Shown in pieces: positions 10,437-60,103 of a stretch of 64,000 nucleotides of DNA. Numbering within the stretch: the stretch's first letter is position 1; the number at the start of each line of letters is the position of its first letter. The notes under the pieces were generated by a model, which was not told the origin of the DNA, made no database searches, and saw only the letters and a program-made list of their open reading frames with translations. Source of the stretch: Kaustia mangrovi (GTDB lineage: Bacteria; Pseudomonadota; Alphaproteobacteria; Rhizobiales; Im1); contig NZ_CP058214.1 of the NCBI RefSeq assembly GCF_015482775.1, forward strand, positions 2,346,501-2,410,500. The letters are read 5' to 3'. A program made the translations under genes and the position numbers.

Positions 10437-10462
10437 CCCTCCCCCTGACGTCAGGGGGAGGG
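10437..10462. repeat. 26-bp perfect palindrome between doeC and doeD
   Basis: The palindrome is centred on TGACGTCA with arms CCCTCCCCC / GGGGGAGGG. It lies in the 151-bp gap between two leftward genes that otherwise look like one operon. It may be a processing or attenuation hairpin, or a member of a GC-rich repeat family. A second GC-rich stem follows (CCCCG/CGGGG near 10487-10502). No T-run follows on the minus strand, so it is not a standard terminator. Confidence 0.6.
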
Positions 10463-43050: not shown

Positions 43051-43144
43051 GGGGCTGTCTCGCTTTCGGTTGCCACTGGGTGTTCGCCAAGGTCTCGGGC
43101 GCCGTCCCGGAATGTGCCATCCACCGCACAGTCGCATTCATTCG

Positions 43145-43210
43145 TCATCCCCGCGAAAGCGGGGATCCAATGCGGCGATAGAGGCTGGATCCCCGCTTTC
43201 GCGGGGATGA
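43145..43210. repeat. Head-to-head REP-like pair forming a 66-bp inverted repeat
   Basis: A 25-bp unit (TCATCCCCGCGAAAGCGGGG then ATCCA) is followed 16 bp later by its exact reverse complement. Each unit alone folds as CCCCGC-GAAA-GCGGGG, a stem capped by a GNRA tetraloop, so the DNA can form either two small hairpins or one long stem. Related single units occur at 3335 and 18678. It sits between hutC and hutU. Confidence 0.7.
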
Positions 43211-43234
43211 CGCGACGTCTGACACCCCTGGCGC

Positions 43235-52779: not shown

Positions 52780-55116
52780 ATGAAAGTCTCGATCATCGGC
52801 GGCGGGCCGGCCGGGCTCTATTTCGCCATCCTCGCCAAGGCGGCGTGGCCGGCCATGGACATCGCGGTCCACGAACGCAACCGGCCGGACGACACGTTCG
52901 GCTTCGGCGTCGTCTTCTCCGACGAGACGCTGCAGAACTTCGAGGCCTACGATCCGGAGAGCTACCGGCTCATCACCGATCACTTCGCCTATTGGGACGA
53001 TATCGAGATCCATTTCAAGGACAGCGTCCACCGGATCGGCGGCAACGGCTTCTGCGGCTGCGCGCGCACCACGCTCCTCAAGCTTCTCCACCAGCGCGCC
53101 CGCGCGCTCGGCGTGGAGCTCGTCTTCGACGACGACGTCTCGGATCTCTCCCGCTTCGCCGACAGCGACCTCGTGGTCGCCGCCGACGGCATCAACAGCC
53201 GCATCCGCGAGGATCGCCGCGACCATTTCCGCCCGCAGGTCGACCTGCGCCCCAACCGCTTCTCCTGGATGGGCTCCACCAAGCCGCTCGACGCCTTCAC
53301 CTTCTACTTCCGGGAGACCGAGCACGGCATCTTCATCGCCCATTGCTACCAGTACGAGCCGGGCCGCTCCACCTGGGTGATGGAGACCGATCCGGAGACC
53401 TTCGCGCGCGCCGGGCTGGAGGCGATGAGCGAGGAGGCGGCGGCGCGGTTCCTCGAAGGCGTGTTCGCAGACGAGCTCGACGGGCACAGGCTCATCACCA
53501 ACCGCTCCATGTGGCGCCAGTTCCCCATGATCCGAAACGAGCGCTGGACCATGGACAATGTGGTGCTGCTCGGCGACGCCAAGGCGACAGCGCATTTCTC
53601 CATAGGCTCCGGCACCAAGCTCGCCATGGAGGACGCCATCGCGCTCTTTAAGGCCTTGAAGGCAACCGGCACCGTGCCCGACGCGCTTGCCCGGTTCGAG
53701 AGCGGGCGGCGCGAGGAGGTGGAGAAGACCCAGCACGCCGCCGACGTCTCGCTCGTCTGGTTCGAGCATATCGGCCGCTTCTGGGACATGGAGCCCGTGC
53801 AGTTCGCCTTCGGCCTCATGACGCGCTCCAAGGCCATCACCTACGACAATCTGGAGCTCAGGGCGCCCGATTTCGTGCGCGCGGCCGACCGGATGTTCGC
53901 CCGCCAGACGCGCGGGCGCGGCTTCGACGTCGATGTCGATGAGCCGGTCGCGCCCATGTTCCAGCCCTTCCGTCTTCGCGACATGGTCCTGGAGAACCGC
54001 GTCGTCGTCTCGCCCATGTGCATGTATTCCGCCGAGGAGGGCGTGCCGGGCGACTTCCACCTCGTCCATTACGGCGCCCGCGCCATGGGCGGGGCCGGAC
54101 TCATGTTCACCGAGATGACCGATATCTCGCGCGATGCCCGCATCTCGCCCGGCTGTACCGGCATCTACGACGACGCGCAGGAAGCCGCCTGGAAGCGCAT
54201 CGTCGACTTCGTCCACGAACGCTCCCGCACGAAGTTCTGCCTGCAGATCGGCCATGCCGGGCGCAAGGGCTCGACCCGGCTCATGTGGGAGGGCATCGAC
54301 GAGCCGCTGGAGGAGGGCAACTGGGAGATCGTCGCGCCCTCGCCGCTGCCCTATTTCCCCCACAGCCAGGTGCCGCGCGAGATGACGCGCGCCGACATGG
54401 ACGCCACGCTCGAGGATTACGTCGCCGCCGTCCACCGCGCCGGGCGCGCGGGCTTCGACATGATCGAGCTGCACTGCGCGCACGGCTATCTGCTCGCGAC
54501 CTTCATCTCGCCGCTGACCAACCGGCGCACGGACGACTACGGCGGCAGCCTGGACAACCGCCTGCGCTTTCCGCTCGAAGTCTTCGCCGCCATGCGCGAG
54601 GCCTGGCCGAACCGCAAGCCGATGTCGGTCCGCCTGTCGGCCACCGACTGGAAGGAAGGCGGCATCACCGGCGACGACACGGTGGAGATCGCGCGCGCCT
54701 TCGCCCGCGCCGGCGCCGACCTGATCGACGTCTCCTCCGGCCAGACGGTGCACGACGCCAAGCCGGTCTTCGGGCGCATGTTCCAGACGCCGTTCTCCGA
54801 CCAGGTGCGCAACGAGGCCGGCCTCGCCACCATGTGCGTCGGCAACATCACCACGGCGGACCAGGTGAACACCATCCTCGCCGCCGGCCGCGCCGACCTC
54901 GTCGCGCTGGCGCGGCCCCATCTCGCCAATCCGAGCTTTGCGCTCAACGCCGCCGCGGAGTATGGCTTTGGCGACCTCTATTGCCCGCCGCAATACGAGG
55001 CCGGCTTCGAGCAGGCCATGCGCAACGCCCAGCGCACCCGCGAGGAGCTGAAGGAGCTGCGCCTGAAGGCGAGGCCGCGCCATCGCTACCAGCGCATGCG
55101 CGAGGCGGCGGAATAA
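52780..55116 (+). CDS. Bifunctional aryl-CoA monooxygenase/OYE-type reductase (2-aminobenzoyl-CoA or salicylyl-CoA 5-hydroxylase type)
   Basis: 778-residue two-domain flavoprotein. N-terminal PHBH-type FAD monooxygenase (about 1-385): [10 protein letters not shown] near residue 7, middle VAADGIN, and [26 protein letters not shown] for the FAD pyrophosphate. C-terminal old-yellow-enzyme FMN domain (about 390-775): [64 protein letters not shown]. This fusion matches 2-aminobenzoyl-CoA monooxygenase/reductase of Azoarcus and is often named salicylyl-CoA 5-hydroxylase/oxidoreductase. It oxygenates and reduces the aryl-CoA ring. Start follows GGGAGAGGACG. Divergent from the SDR-marR operon. Confidence 0.93.
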
Positions 55117-55154
55117 GATTGCCCGGACAGGGAGAGACAGGGGAGGGTCAGTCC

Positions 55155-56396
55155 ATGAAAGCCATTGTTGTCGGGGGCGGGATCGGGGGCCTCGCCACCG
55201 CGCTCGCGCTCCACGAGAAGGGGATCGAGGCGGAGATCTTCGAGCAGTCGCGCGAGGTGCGCGAGCTCGGGGTCGGCATCAACACGCTGCCGCACGCCAT
55301 CAGGGAGCTCGCCGCGTTCGGCCTTCTCGACGCGCTCGACCGGGTCGCCATCCGCACGCACGAGCTGATCTACACCAACCGCTTCGGCCAGGAGATCTGG
55401 CGCGAGCTGCGCGGGACCGACGCGGGCTACGACTATCCGCAGTTCTCCATCCATCGCGGCAAGCTGCAGGCCGTGCTGCACGAGGCCGTGCTGGACAGGC
55501 TCGGGCCCGAACGCGTGAGAACGGGCCTCAGGCTGTCCGCCTTCGAACAGGACGACACGGGCGTGACCGCGCGGTTCGAGAGGCGCGACGGCGGCGCCGA
55601 GGAGGCGCGCGGAGACATCCTGATCGGCGCCGACGGCATCCATTCCACCGTGCGCGGGACCTTCTACCCCGACGAGGGGCCGCCGCGCTGGAACGGCCTC
55701 ATGCTGTGGCGCGGGGCGACATGGTGGCCGCCCTTCATGACCGGGCGCTCCATGGTGATCGCCGGCGGCATGAAGGCGAAGCTCGTCCTCTATCCGATCT
55801 ACAACGATCCGGCGCGCCCCGGCGAAACGCTCATGAACTGGGCGGTTGTGGCCAAGATCGGCGACCGCGACACGCCGCCGCCCCGGCGCGAGGACTGGTC
55901 GCGGCCCGGCAAGCGCGAGGAGCTCATGCCCTTCGTGGAAGGCTCGTTCAGCGGCTGCGTCATCGATCCGGTGAAGCTGATCGAGGCGACGGAGGAATTC
56001 TACGAATATCCCATGTGCGACCGCGATCCGCTCAAGCAATGGAGCTTCGGACGGGTCACGCTGCTGGGCGATGCGGCCCACCCCATGTATCCCGTCGGCT
56101 CGAACGGGGCGAGCCAGGCCGTGCTCGACGCCCGCTTCCTCGCCGATGTGCTGGCCCACGGCGGCGATCCGGTCGCCGCGCTCAAGGCCTATGAGGCAGA
56201 ACGGCTGGCCAAGACCGCCGACATCGTGATCCAGAACCGCTCCGGCGGGCCGGAACGGGTGATCGACGTCATCGAGGAGCGCGCGCCGCAGGGGTTTGCC
56301 GACATCGGCGATGTCGCGAGCCCGGAGGAGCTCAAGGCCATCGTCGCCGGCTACCAGAAGATGGCGGGCTTCGACCAGAGCCAGGTGAACCGGTAG
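55155..56396 (+). CDS. FAD-dependent monooxygenase (PhzS/salicylate hydroxylase-like)
   Basis: 413-residue class A flavoprotein hydroxylase. GxGxxG is VVGGGIGGLATALAL (residues 5-19), the DG motif is ILIGADGIHSTVRG, and the GD motif is RVTLLGDAAHPMYPVGSNGASQAVLDA. GVGINTLPHAIREL resembles the PhzS-like flavin-dependent oxidoreductases. It is 38 bp downstream of the bifunctional monooxygenase with a GGGGAGGG ribosome site, so shares its transcript. Substrate is unknown; a peripheral aromatic acid is the simplest guess. Confidence 0.88.
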   Translation: MKAIVVGGGIGGLATALALHEKGIEAEIFEQSREVRELGVGINTLPHAIRELAAFGLLDALDRVAIRTHELIYTNRFGQEIWRELRGTDAGYDYPQFSIHRGKLQAVLHEAVLDRLGPERVRTGLRLSAFEQDDTGVTARFERRDGGAEEARGDILIGADGIHSTVRGTFYPDEGPPRWNGLMLWRGATWWPPFMTGRSMVIAGGMKAKLVLYPIYNDPARPGETLMNWAVVAKIGDRDTPPPRREDWSRPGKREELMPFVEGSFSGCVIDPVKLIEATEEFYEYPMCDRDPLKQWSFGRVTLLGDAAHPMYPVGSNGASQAVLDARFLADVLAHGGDPVAALKAYEAERLAKTADIVIQNRSGGPERVIDVIEERAPQGFADIGDVASPEELKAIVAGYQKMAGFDQSQVNR

Positions 56397-56608
56397 GGGG
56401 ACCAGTCTCCTTTGCGTTATTCCCGAGCAACCGGAGGATTCATACCGGCCCGGACGCCGTGTGACCGGACCAGGAACGCATCGACATGGGCCTATGGAGC
56501 GTTGGGAAGCTTGAGACCTGCCATTTGTTTCTAGCGCGGCAAGCACCCGTCGTCGTGACAAAGGCGTGGGGCAATGAGGTTGGGCCGTTCGCGGCAGAGA
56601 CAGATAGT

Positions 56609-56644
56609 GAGTGCCCCGCCCGCTCCCTATTGGGCGGGGCACTC
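56609..56644. other. 13-bp-stem hairpin with a GCTCCCTATT loop
   Basis: Arms GAGTGCCCCGCCC / GGGCGGGGCACTC enclose a 10-base loop, GCTCCCTATT. No T-run follows, so it is not a standard terminator, though it could end the transcript of the upstream monooxygenase genes. The loop almost equals that of the hairpin at 57392. Confidence 0.6.
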
Positions 56645-57391
56645 ATCCCCCCGGCCTATCTTGGTGGGACCGACCGGCTGGTGCCGGCGTCGGATTGTCC
56701 AGACATTCCCCACCGGCGGAGCTGCCATCCGCTGCAGCCACGATCCGCCAGTGTCGCGATGGGTGACAGAACCGAGCGTCTCTCAGGATCGGCGCTGGTT
56801 AGGCATCCCCGCACACAACAGGCCGATAGTTCAGCTTGTCTTGGAAGAAGAATGACCGTCTTGACGAGGTCTCTGGTGAGATTTCACGCCAGTATAGCGC
56901 GGCTTTTCCCACTGACTTTTGCGCAAGATGCGCAGGAATGCCCTGTGCGCAGATGCGCACTTCCATAATGAAACTCATACCGCAGCCCCCTTTGGCAGAG
57001 CATGTCACGGACATCTCTGCCCGTGCTTGGCATCTTTGTTTTGGCTCCCCATGCAGTACGATTAATTGTTGCCCACAAACTCCAACAAATCAACATCTAA
57101 AAAAATTTAATATAATCCCATGACAATTAATATTATTATGTCAACTTCTGGTAATTGTATTATTTTATAAACTATATACATCTCTGATATTTATATATGT
57201 ATACAAATGGTACGAATATCGCAAAAATACTAATATAGTATGGGATAGTTCATTATATATCATGATCCAGTTCAGCACTTATCATTTTGCGTCATTCGAT
57301 ATTTTTAGTGGATAGGAGTGTGTCATAACGTTGTCTTCTGGACGTGCAGTATTGGTCTTGCGTGCAATACGTTGCTAGCATAGTTGGGGTG

Positions 57392-57479
57392 CGGCAAGGG
57401 CAGCTCCCTAATTGCCCTTGCCGTGCAGAGAGCGGCGGCATCCCCCTGGTGGGACTTCCCCCCGGCTGCCGCCGCTCTC
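57392..57479 (+). ncRNA. Candidate small RNA: two consecutive hairpins
   Basis: Hairpin 1 has an 11-bp stem (CGGCAAGGGCA / TGCCCTTGCCG, 57392-57423) with loop GCTCCCTAAT. Hairpin 2 has a 13-bp stem (GAGAGCGGCGGCA / TGCCGCCGCTCTC, 57428-57479) with a C-rich 26-base loop. A sigma70-like promoter, TTGGTC-N18-TAGCAT (57352-57381), is 11 bp upstream. CUCCCU in the loop could pair with AGGGAG ribosome sites. No T-run follows. Expression is unproven. Confidence 0.35.
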
Positions 57480-57752
57480 ACTCCGGATCGATATGGCAGC
57501 AGTTCTACTCTCCCGACACCAACCGCTCGCGCGCAGCGCTGGCCAGATAGGCCGAGTGGGTGATACCTGTGCGCGCGGCCGGTTCGTGGAGGCGCTCGTC
57601 CGCAAGCTCATCCTGGAGCTGGCCGAGGCCGGCGATCCGGGCGGAGCGCGCCGGCCGGAATGAGCCCGGACTTGTCCCGCCGGCGGCCTTGAGGCACTGT
57701 GCGTTCGCGAAAGACTGTTTCGCCAACCGAAATGACATCGCGAGCGATTTCC

Positions 57753-59264
57753 ATGAACGATCCGAACACCGCTGAGCTGACCGTCGGCGTCGTGGGCGCC
57801 GGCGCCATGGGGCAGGGCATCGTGCAGGTGAGCCTCACCGGCGGCATGGCCGTCAGGCTCCACGACGCCAGGCCGGGAGGCGCGGAGGCCGGCCGCGACG
57901 CCGTCTTCGCCCGCATCGACCGGCTGGTGGAGAAGGGACGGCTGGACGAGGCCGGGGCGGAGGCGGCCAAGGGCCGGCTGACGCTGATCGACGGCATTGC
58001 CGGGCTCGCCGGCTGCGACGCGGTCATCGAGGCGGTGTTCGAGGATCTTCAGCTGAAGCGCAAGCTGTTCGCCGAGATCGAGGAGACCGTGTCGGACGAC
58101 TGCCTGATCGCCTCCAACACCTCCTCCATCCTCATCGCCTCCATTGCCAGCGCGGCCAGGAAGCGGGACCGGATCGCGGGGCTCCATTTCTTCAACCCCG
58201 TGCCGCTCATGAAGCTCGTGGAGGTGGTGCGCGGGCCGGAGACCTCGCAGGCCACCGTCGACGCGCTGGTCGCGCTCGGCAAGCGCATGGGCCGCGTGCC
58301 GGTGGTCGCGCGCGACGCGCCGGGCTTCCTCGTCAATCATGGCGGGCGCGCCTTCACCACCGAAGGCATCCGCCTCCTCCACGAGCGCGTGGCCACGCCG
58401 GCCGAGATCGACGCGGTGATGCGCGACTGCTGCGGCTACCGGATGGGGCCGTGCGAGCTCATGGATCTGACCGGCATCGATGTGAACCTGCCGGTGACCG
58501 ACATCATCCATGAGGGCTTCTCGCAGGATCCGCGGCTGAAGACCTTCTTCCCCCACCGCGCCCTCTTCGAGGCCGGCCGCCATGGCCGCAAGACGGGCGC
58601 CGGCCATTACGACTACGACGAGACCGGCCGGATCACGGGCGCCCCCTCGCCCGACCATGCGAGCGATGCCGCGCCGGCCAAGGCCGTCGCGCTCGCCGAG
58701 CCCGACGCCGCCCTGAAGGCCTTTGCGGAAGGGCTCGGCGCGACGGTGCTGGACGCCGACGACGGGACGAGCCCGATCCTCGCCGCCCCGGTCGGCGAGG
58801 ACTGCGCGACGCTCGCCCACCGCACCGGCGCCGACCATCGCCGCCTCGTGGCGGTCGACCTCGTCTTCCTGAGCGAGGCGCGCGCCACGATCATGACGCC
58901 GCCCGGCGCCGATCCCAAGGCGCGCGACGCGGTGGCCGCACTCATCGCCCGAGCGGGCCGCAAGGTCACCGCCATCAAGGATTCGCCCGGCTTCGTCGCC
59001 CAGCGCATCCAGGCCATGATCGCCAATCTCGGCGCCGAGATGGCGCAGATCGGCGTCGCCGCGCCGGAGGAGATCGACACCGCCATGGAGCTCGGCCTCA
59101 ACTATCCCAAGGGCCCGCTCGCGCTCGCCGACGCCGTCGGCCCGGACCGGGTCATGGCCATTCTCGCCGCCATGCAGGATATTACGGGCGAGGACCGCTA
59201 CCGGACGAGCCTGTGGCTCAGGCGCCGCGCGCTGCTGGGCCTTAGCGCGCACGTTCCCGACTGA
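57753..59264 (+). CDS. 3-hydroxyacyl-CoA dehydrogenase (PaaH/PaaC-like)
   Basis: 503-residue NAD-dependent enzyme. The Rossmann motif is [18 protein letters not shown] (near 10-27), followed by [12 protein letters not shown] and [17 protein letters not shown], which includes the catalytic His. The C-terminal domain is duplicated ([15 protein letters not shown]... and [17 protein letters not shown]...), as in PaaH-type long forms of about 500 residues. Start options are 57753 (used) and 57732. It oxidises a 3-hydroxyacyl-CoA of the ring-derived chain. Followed by an ECH gene after 29 bp; separated from the monooxygenases by the 1.36-kb gap. Confidence 0.9.
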
Positions 59265-59293
59265 GCCGGAGGACAGAACTCGGAGGAGCCCCC

Positions 59294-60103
59294 ATGTCTG
59301 TGGATTACGGCCGCTACACGGCGCTCAAGATCGCGCGGCCCGCGCCGCGCATCCTGGAGATCGTGCTGTCGGCGCCGGGCCGGCTCAACGCGCTCGACCA
59401 TGAGGGCCATGGCGAGCTCGCCGAGATCTGGCGCGACGTCGACAAGGATCCCGACACCGCCGTCGTCCTGCTGCGCGGAGAGGGCGGCACCTTCTCCGCC
59501 GGCGGCGACCTCGCCATGGTGGAGGAGATGGCCGACGACTGGACCACCCGCATGCGCGTGTGGAAGGAAGCCTCCGACATCGTCTACAACGTCATCAACT
59601 GCTCCAAGCCCGTCGTCTCCGCCATAGAGGGCGTGGGGGTCGGCGCGGGGCTCGCCGCGGCGCTCGTCTCCGACATCACGGTGGCCGGCCGCACCGCGCG
59701 CATCATCGACGGGCATACCCGGCTCGGCGTGGCGGCGGGCGATCATTCCGCCATTGTCTGGCCGCTGCTCTGCGGCATGGCGAAGGCCAAGTACTACCTG
59801 CTCCTGTGCGAGACCGTGACGGGGGAGGAGGCCGAACGCATCGGCCTCGTCTCGCTGGCAGTGGACGATGACCGGGTCGTTGCCGAAGCGATGGCCGTCT
59901 GCGAGAAGCTCGCCGCCGGCGCGCCGGCCGCCATACGGCTCACCAAGCACGCGCTCAACAACTGGCTGCGCCAGGCCGGCCCGGCCTTCGACGCCTCTCT
60001 GGCGCTGGAGTTCCTGGGCTTCTCCGGCCCCGAGGTCCGCGAGGGCCTCGCCTCGCTGAAGGAGAAGCGCAAGCCGGACTTCGACCCCGACAGTCCGTTC
60101 TAG
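59294..60103 (+). CDS. Enoyl-CoA hydratase/isomerase family protein
   Basis: 269-residue crotonase. Oxyanion-hole blocks are [21 protein letters not shown] and [28 protein letters not shown]. The usual catalytic Glu positions carry Val/Asp substitutions ([19 protein letters not shown]), similar to the acyl-CoA hydrolase/isomerase-type members. AACTCGGAGGAG precedes the ATG. It pairs with the 3-hydroxyacyl-CoA dehydrogenase for beta-oxidation-like degradation. It ends 10 bp from the convergent flippase gene. Confidence 0.88.

Follow-up and report, generated by a model that had tools for sequence, protein, structure and literature searches.

Small RNAs (sRNAs) with conserved anti-Shine-Dalgarno (anti-SD) motifs in the loops of divergent stems are established in rhizobia, according to two reports (PMC3927594, PMC10746234). 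The alpha-r14 RNAs (SmelA075/NfeR1) are described as three hairpins exposing identical CCUCCUCCC motifs on divergent stems, and NfeR1 is reported to silence ntrBC where its translation begins. For SmelC671, the first paper (PMC3927594) mentions a single-stranded CUCCCUGU motif that is conserved, and for AbcR1 it reports partial anti-SD loop motifs. AbcR1 and AbcR2 appear as two similar sRNA genes in tandem in another paper (PMC3712013). In Bradyrhizobium, repetitive elements that comprise three palindromes are known to be transcribed. Br-REP1 and Br-REP2 are intergenic palindromes with hairpins in a row; in B. japonicum USDA 110 they occupy about 200 and at least 50 sites, respectively, and some genomes have one to five copies of Br-REP1 (PMC5082802).

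The locus described here is an intergenic gap of 1.36 kb (56397-57752) in a window of Kaustia mangrovi DNA, i.e. the whole stretch of 64,000 nucleotides that was analysed, from a host that its gene content suggests to be an alphaproteobacterium, with weak support from the organisms of similar plasmid proteins. The gap is flanked by genes assigned by Pfam as FAD-dependent monooxygenase and 3-hydroxyacyl-CoA dehydrogenase and holds two hairpin units, U1 and U2, spaced 781 nt apart. Compared with each other, U1 and U2 resemble the alpha-r14 RNAs (PMC3927594, PMC10746234) in anti-SD loop motifs that are kept on diverging stems, but in alpha-r14 a single RNA presents CCUCCUCCC three times, once per hairpin, whereas U1 and U2 display CUCCCU in one such loop per unit. 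The motif CCTCCTCCC of alpha-r14 is absent from both strands of 56591-57500, where the loops read GCUCCCUAUU and GCUCCCUAAU. The loop is kept over diverging stems only between U1 and U2, and the opposite holds between U1 and its paralogues L55 and L57. The arrangement of two similar units recalls AbcR1/AbcR2, from which U1 and U2 differ by their spacing, by the lack of an Rfam family match at gathering score and by the lack of a recognisable terminator on the + strand. No Rfam family reached its gathering score in the window, including a test of AbcR (alpha-r15) membership; Rfam presumably holds an AbcR model.

U2 could be aligned over its whole length, on the + strand and with a two-hairpin layout, to BjrC68 (RF02353; 19.8 bits, with E 0.0038 for a search of 181 nt) and CcsR1 (RF02791; 16.9 bits, E 0.052), both far below the gathering scores of 39 and 65.3. 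Neither family was among the matches of U1 at E values up to 5. The full-length alignment with BjrC68 is at best a lead, as hairpin-rich miRNA models score close to it on the same U2 stretch (E 0.034-0.18). Membership in alpha-r14, AbcR, BjrC68 or CcsR1 did not withstand the tests made, the motif being absent or the scores being below gathering. Compared with the Br-REPs, three to four copies exist here, and their printed consensus (PMC5082802) looks unlike the U1/U2-type elements when judged by eye, unaligned. No description of the element surfaced among the titles listed in a literature search (GCUCCCUA, CUCCCU, UGGUGGGAC), none of which names a bacterial RNA.

Two hairpin units and their paralogues

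As the initial annotation had described, the gap contains two strong hairpins (Table 1) with unrelated stems, which match at 9 of 28 positions and thus at about chance level, and with nearly identical 10-base loops, which match at 9 of 10. Counting G-U pairs, U1 hairpin A comprises 16 bp around an 8-nt loop (CUCCCUAU) on the + strand (56607-56646). Both units also contain ATCCCCC and the 9-mer TGGTGGGAC, the latter located 3' of the loops by 30 nt in U1 and 34 nt in U2; as a lone 9-mer it is unremarkable, with at least two copies in 6 of 100 shuffles.

Table 1. Features of the intergenic gap, with positions in the window.
Feature	Position	Strand	Description
U1 hairpin A	56608..56645	+	14-bp perfect stem, 10-nt loop
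U1 loop	56622..56631	+	GCTCCCTATT
U1 block similar to L55	56634..56776		84% identity, 124/147 columns
TGGTGGGAC copy in U1, common to U2	56662..56670	+	
Block similar to L57	56930..57027		72% identity, colinear with L57 hairpin A
AT-rich stretch between U1 and U2	57050..57349		18-38% GC per 100-nt window, no gene recognised
16-mer TTATCATTTTGCGTCA	57279..57294		identical in the L57 locus, same order
U2 hairpin A	57389..57426	+	11-bp Watson-Crick core; 15 bp on the + strand counting G-U
U2 loop	57403..57412	+	GCTCCCTAAT
U2 hairpin B	57428..57479	+	13-bp stem; loop with TGGTGGGAC (57447-57455) and C-rich stretches
HicB-like antitoxin C-terminus relic	57505..57594	-	RLHEPAARTGITHSAYLASAARERLVSGE

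The flanks of the AT-rich stretch mostly have 60-78% GC per 100 nt. An intact HicB-like relative of the antitoxin relic was found (L084, 6268-6678, PF15919), and the relic itself would be a sign of decayed mobile DNA in the gap.

A blastn search of the gap against its own genome revealed two paralogues, L55 (E 3.4e-38) and L57 (E 1.6e-6). The matched part of L55 (3932119-3932265; to about 3932305 with hairpin A) belongs to a Mu-like prophage, in which it sits between gpF and the protease I gene (PF04233, PF10123, PF10124), on the strand opposite to the surrounding phage genes. In this prophage (L082, 5324-7536), gpF and protease I are separated by about 2 kb, which contain two ORFs without Pfam match followed by L55. 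L57 (about 2471716-2472081) is located downstream of ilvD, between the ilvD-type gene (PF00920) and a DctP-type gene (PF03480), opposite in strand to both. It has in common with U1 the hairpin stem, a CCCCCGG linker, the 72% block and the exact 16-mer, all in the same order. The relation of U1 to L55 is based on 147 columns and that of U1 to L57 on several colinear pieces.

U1, L55 and L57 share GAGTGCCCCG on one stem arm and differ in their loops; most of the stem GAGUGCCCCG/CGGGGCACUC is retained in the chromosomal and the Mu-like prophage copies, and the loop changes by copy. This is the mirror image of the comparison of U1 with U2. Folded on the + strand, the loops are CUCCCUAU (U1), CUCCCUAA (U2), CCCUCC (L57) and AUCGUUCCCCCCAC (L55), with pyrimidines at 30 of 36 bases. 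All four are anti-SD-like with one polarity, compared to 3 of 24 background loops of at least 6 nt with such a motif on either strand, where the four loops were taken from folds and the background loops from a stem census. As the paralogues keep the stem and change the loop, the general feature appears to be a pyrimidine-rich loop character rather than an exact sequence.

We tentatively regard the adjacent units U1 and U2 as belonging, together with L55 and L57, to a very small family whose members are structured and non-coding. This family was probably brought in or spread with mobile DNA.

Mobile DNA and relatives in other genomes

Just as possible as the sRNA reading given below, although we would call neither probable, is that U1, U2, L55 and L57 are relics of repetitive or mobile DNA, REP-like or prophage-derived palindromes without a regulatory role, whose hairpins remain as decaying repeats or serve at most as weak terminators or insulators. 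This is in agreement with the position of L55 between gpF and protease I, with the HicB relic and the AT-rich stretch in the gap, and with copies that are alike in patches only. In a test for a REP-like repeat, three copies were found with one of two search models (R2), with U2 as the fourth. As Br-REP1 is rare in some genomes, numbering one to five copies (PMC5082802), the low copy number here is no argument against relics. In addition, the outer stem GAGTGCCCCG...CGGGGCACTC was found in 14 viral stretches (L086-L099) around unrelated inner parts and loops, in one case followed by TTTT; it may be a recurrent terminator stem of phages. Because this outer stem recurs in phages, stem identity alone is no proof of descent. 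Conversely, relics do not readily account for substitutions between U1 and L55 that are compatible with a fold, for a loop type and polarity alike in all four copies, and for a near-identical loop on two unrelated stems.

Independently of these elements, the window contains a 27-bp perfect palindrome (CGTCATCCCCGCGAAAGCGGGGATCCA, 16-nt loop, 43143-43212), which is REP-like by eye, and a 29-bp palindrome was noticed at L198, near 4559.

The models R1 and R2 were run on 396 other genomes of the order at an E value of 0.001. R1 matched none of the 396, and the one match of R2 (G186, 33.1 bits) lies inside an ABC-transporter permease gene (PF00528) and was attributed to chance. Among 39 relatives, R1 gave one match at E values up to 10 (L053, 26.1 bits), whose + strand lacks CTCCCT, and R2 gave candidate matches of 18.1-25.0 bits in 9. 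Two weak extra matches of R2 in the own genome were discarded, one being antisense at L57 and the other (L081, 22.5 bits) looking like coding sequence by eye. Convincing relatives were thus not found among the 396 other genomes of the order in these searches, which were pre-filtered (two R1 candidates in the own genome; more strictly above 40 genomes) and may miss relatives with quite different stems; covariance models are also stated to perform less well on RNA families of this type (PMC3927594). Accordingly, a small family means that no further member was seen in this sample, which includes no other genome of the genus.

Pattern searches gave a similar result. Viral contigs with the loop and TGGTGGGAC amounted to 22 stretches, in which the longest stem around a CTCCCT loop has 7 bp, which was attributed to chance; a stricter pattern in public genome contigs retrieved 5 stretches, none of which folds into the hairpin. 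A two-motif pattern occurred in 4 of 61 genomes including the own one, and the other three loci are without a CTCCCT-loop hairpin of at least 6 bp. Across at least 83 Mu-like phage loci (3 identified by protease I and at least 80 by gpT), the best scores were 15.2 bits for R2 and 21.9 bits for R1, all with E values of at least 0.5, and blastn with the four elements against the 83 loci gave nothing below E 0.13. Likewise, no match or one weak match was obtained when the gap (plasmids), L55 (phages and plasmids) and L57 (plasmids) served as blastn queries.

Fold, strand and coding potential

RNAalifold of U1 and L55 predicted 52 pairs on the + strand (-60.6 kcal/mol), with 4 compensatory and 3 one-sided neutral changes; on the - strand it predicted 55 pairs (-81.45 kcal/mol), for which the respective numbers are 3 and 5. 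The program mainly proposes pairs available to both sequences, so that a lack of broken pairs in these folds is no evidence. None of 300 column shuffles was as good as the consensus fold on either strand (z -3.14 on + and -5.25 on -). For the conserved block without hairpin A, the fold signal is marginal: on the + strand, 18 of 300 shuffles fold as well as the block (z -1.62), and on the - strand 11 of 300 do (z -1.97). Judged by its covariation term only, the block was beaten by 21 of 300 shuffles on + and by 49 on -.

On the + strand, all four copies fold better than their dinucleotide shuffles (z -2.99 to -6.66). The single-sequence z values favour the + strand for U1 (-4.51 on + against -3.83 on -), U2 (-5.49 against -4.05) and L57 (-6.66 against -5.18), and the - strand for L55. 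Longer stretches agree with this preference for U1 (-3.53 on + against -3.13 on -) and for L55 (-2.07 on +, with 6 of 200 shuffles as good). Hairpin A of L55 contains two mismatches on the + strand (-14.1 kcal/mol) and is intact on the - strand (-29.0 kcal/mol), where it is followed by UUUAUC; L55 may have been turned into a terminator of prophage genes read in that direction. The evidence on the strand of a functional RNA therefore conflicts.

We consider it unlikely that the functional RNA is the - strand, i.e. a transcript of about 170 nt with a long-range closing stem that ends with hairpin A and presents SD-like G-rich loops (AGGGAG, GGGGGGA) as a decoy or protein site. The consensus fold of the - strand with its better energy and z value, and the L55 hairpin that is intact and followed by UUUAUC on this strand only, would fit such an RNA, as would the position of the closing helix (columns 12-23/130-140) at the point where the similarity of U1 and L55 ends, although no pair of this helix varies. 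It is at odds with U1, U2 and L57 folding better relative to shuffles on the + strand and with the absence of a U-tract on the - strand after any of these three. Furthermore, CsrA (PF02599) had no match in the own genome (G000, 98.31% complete), with a control that was positive in 3 of 14 named genomes, which makes a CsrA sponge unlikely.

A protein-coding origin of the block is disfavoured by several observations: over a stretch of 112 nt without gaps, U1 and L55 differ by 15 substitutions, which split 5/5/5 over the codon positions; the alignment has two 2-nt indels; and five intergenic ORFs lack a Pfam match. In both U1 and L55, however, the 112-nt stretch has three of its six frames open, so that stop codons do not exclude coding.

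The shared loop and its possible function

The loop match was compared with chance in a census of hairpins with loops of 10-14 nt, using 60 second-order Markov windows as controls. With stems of at least 9 bp, the window contains seven such hairpins, one pair of which shares its loop at 9 of 10 positions. Comparable pairs occurred in none of the 60 randomised windows at 9, 10 or 11 bp and in two at 8 bp, an estimate that is somewhat optimistic since the pair was picked after the fact. The loop shared by U1 and U2 is hence beyond chance in randomised windows. Over the whole units the similarity appears modest, with local alignment giving p 0.0145 under lenient and 0.071 under stricter scoring (2000 dinucleotide shuffles).

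The loop motif GCTCCCTAWT occurs four times in the 4.63-Mb genome. A genome scan for hairpins with this loop, as suggested in the initial annotation, recovered the long hairpins of U1 and U2, but the other two sites lack one; a 6-bp stem is present at one of them. In 400 kb of the genome (20 stretches placed by hand) we found 28 perfect hairpins of at least 11 bp, one being the L57 copy. None carries the loop, and this sample therefore does not support a common terminator loop. Within the window, a perfect 11-bp hairpin (CCCTCCCCCTG-ACGT-CAGGGGGAGGG) was observed at 10437-10462.

A coincidence between two unrelated hairpins is very improbable in view of the randomised windows, the mere four genomic copies of the motif and the presence of TGGTGGGAC in register in both units, even though the pair was found after the fact, its whole-unit p values are unimpressive, the pairing was seen in no other genome examined and the paralogues of U1 carry other loops. 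Least probable of all is a role in cis, in which U1 would be a structure at the 3' end of the monooxygenase operon before it and U2 one in the 5' leader of the 3-hydroxyacyl-CoA dehydrogenase gene: both units are on the same strand as the two flanking genes, and about 275-365 nt separate U2 from the dehydrogenase start used (57753) downstream of it, but the best 11 of 149 orthologue loci contain no CTCCCT-loop hairpin of at least 6 bp, and L55 and L57 are opposite to the phage genes and to ilvD and the next gene, respectively.

Our preferred reading, although no more probable than that of mobile-DNA relics, is that each of the four elements may be, or may have been, the gene of a trans-acting anti-SD sRNA comparable to alpha-r14/NfeR1 or AbcR, with transcription, strand, pairing and targets all inferred. 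A GC-rich stem would display a pyrimidine-rich loop with CUCCCU in U1 and U2, CCCUCC in L57 and UUCCCCCC in L55, and next to it would be another C-rich stretch (AUCCCCC or CUCCCCC). Serving as an anti-SD seed, the loop would block translation by pairing with the ribosome-binding sites of target mRNAs. Sharing one loop, U1 and U2 would be siblings with redundant roles.

The shared loop beyond chance, the anti-SD-like loops of L55 and L57 and the rhizobial precedent give partial support to the sRNA loops proposed in the initial annotation, but promoter and U-tract could not be confirmed. A sigma-70-type scan of 54500-60000 detected a single candidate site, about 250 nt upstream of U2, where 0.6 are expected by chance, which does not bear out the plausible promoter noted before U2. 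After the + strand hairpins no U-tract terminator was found, as a C-run comes after U1 and hairpin B after U2; the terminator scan, which accepted loops of 3-8 only, listed neither unit. AGGGAG indeed precedes possible gene starts, as had been noted: in a mechanical count, ATG, GTG or TTG lies 3-12 nt after 6 of the 18 sites in the window and opens a frame of at least 100 codons. The 7-mer complement TAGGGAG is confined in the window to the two loops themselves, however, so that no specific target for the suggested pairing is seen there. Because the fold is marginal without hairpin A and REP elements can occur in few copies, we give the sRNA reading and the relic reading equal weight.

One step further, and decidedly doubtful, is the idea that the elements are riboregulators exchanged by phages, in which the clamp is conserved and the anti-SD loop can be swapped. 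With the same loop found on the unrelated stem of a tandem partner, loop and scaffold would then evolve as separate modules. If the elements are not transcribed, they represent a small set of mobile-DNA relics of little interest. If they are, they would form an anti-SD sRNA family that is answered by no Rfam 15 model at gathering score, and its members on prophage and chromosome could act on the same targets or on shifted sets of them. The prophage copy, with its near-identical clamp and different loop, bears on the question whether loop and scaffold are separable.
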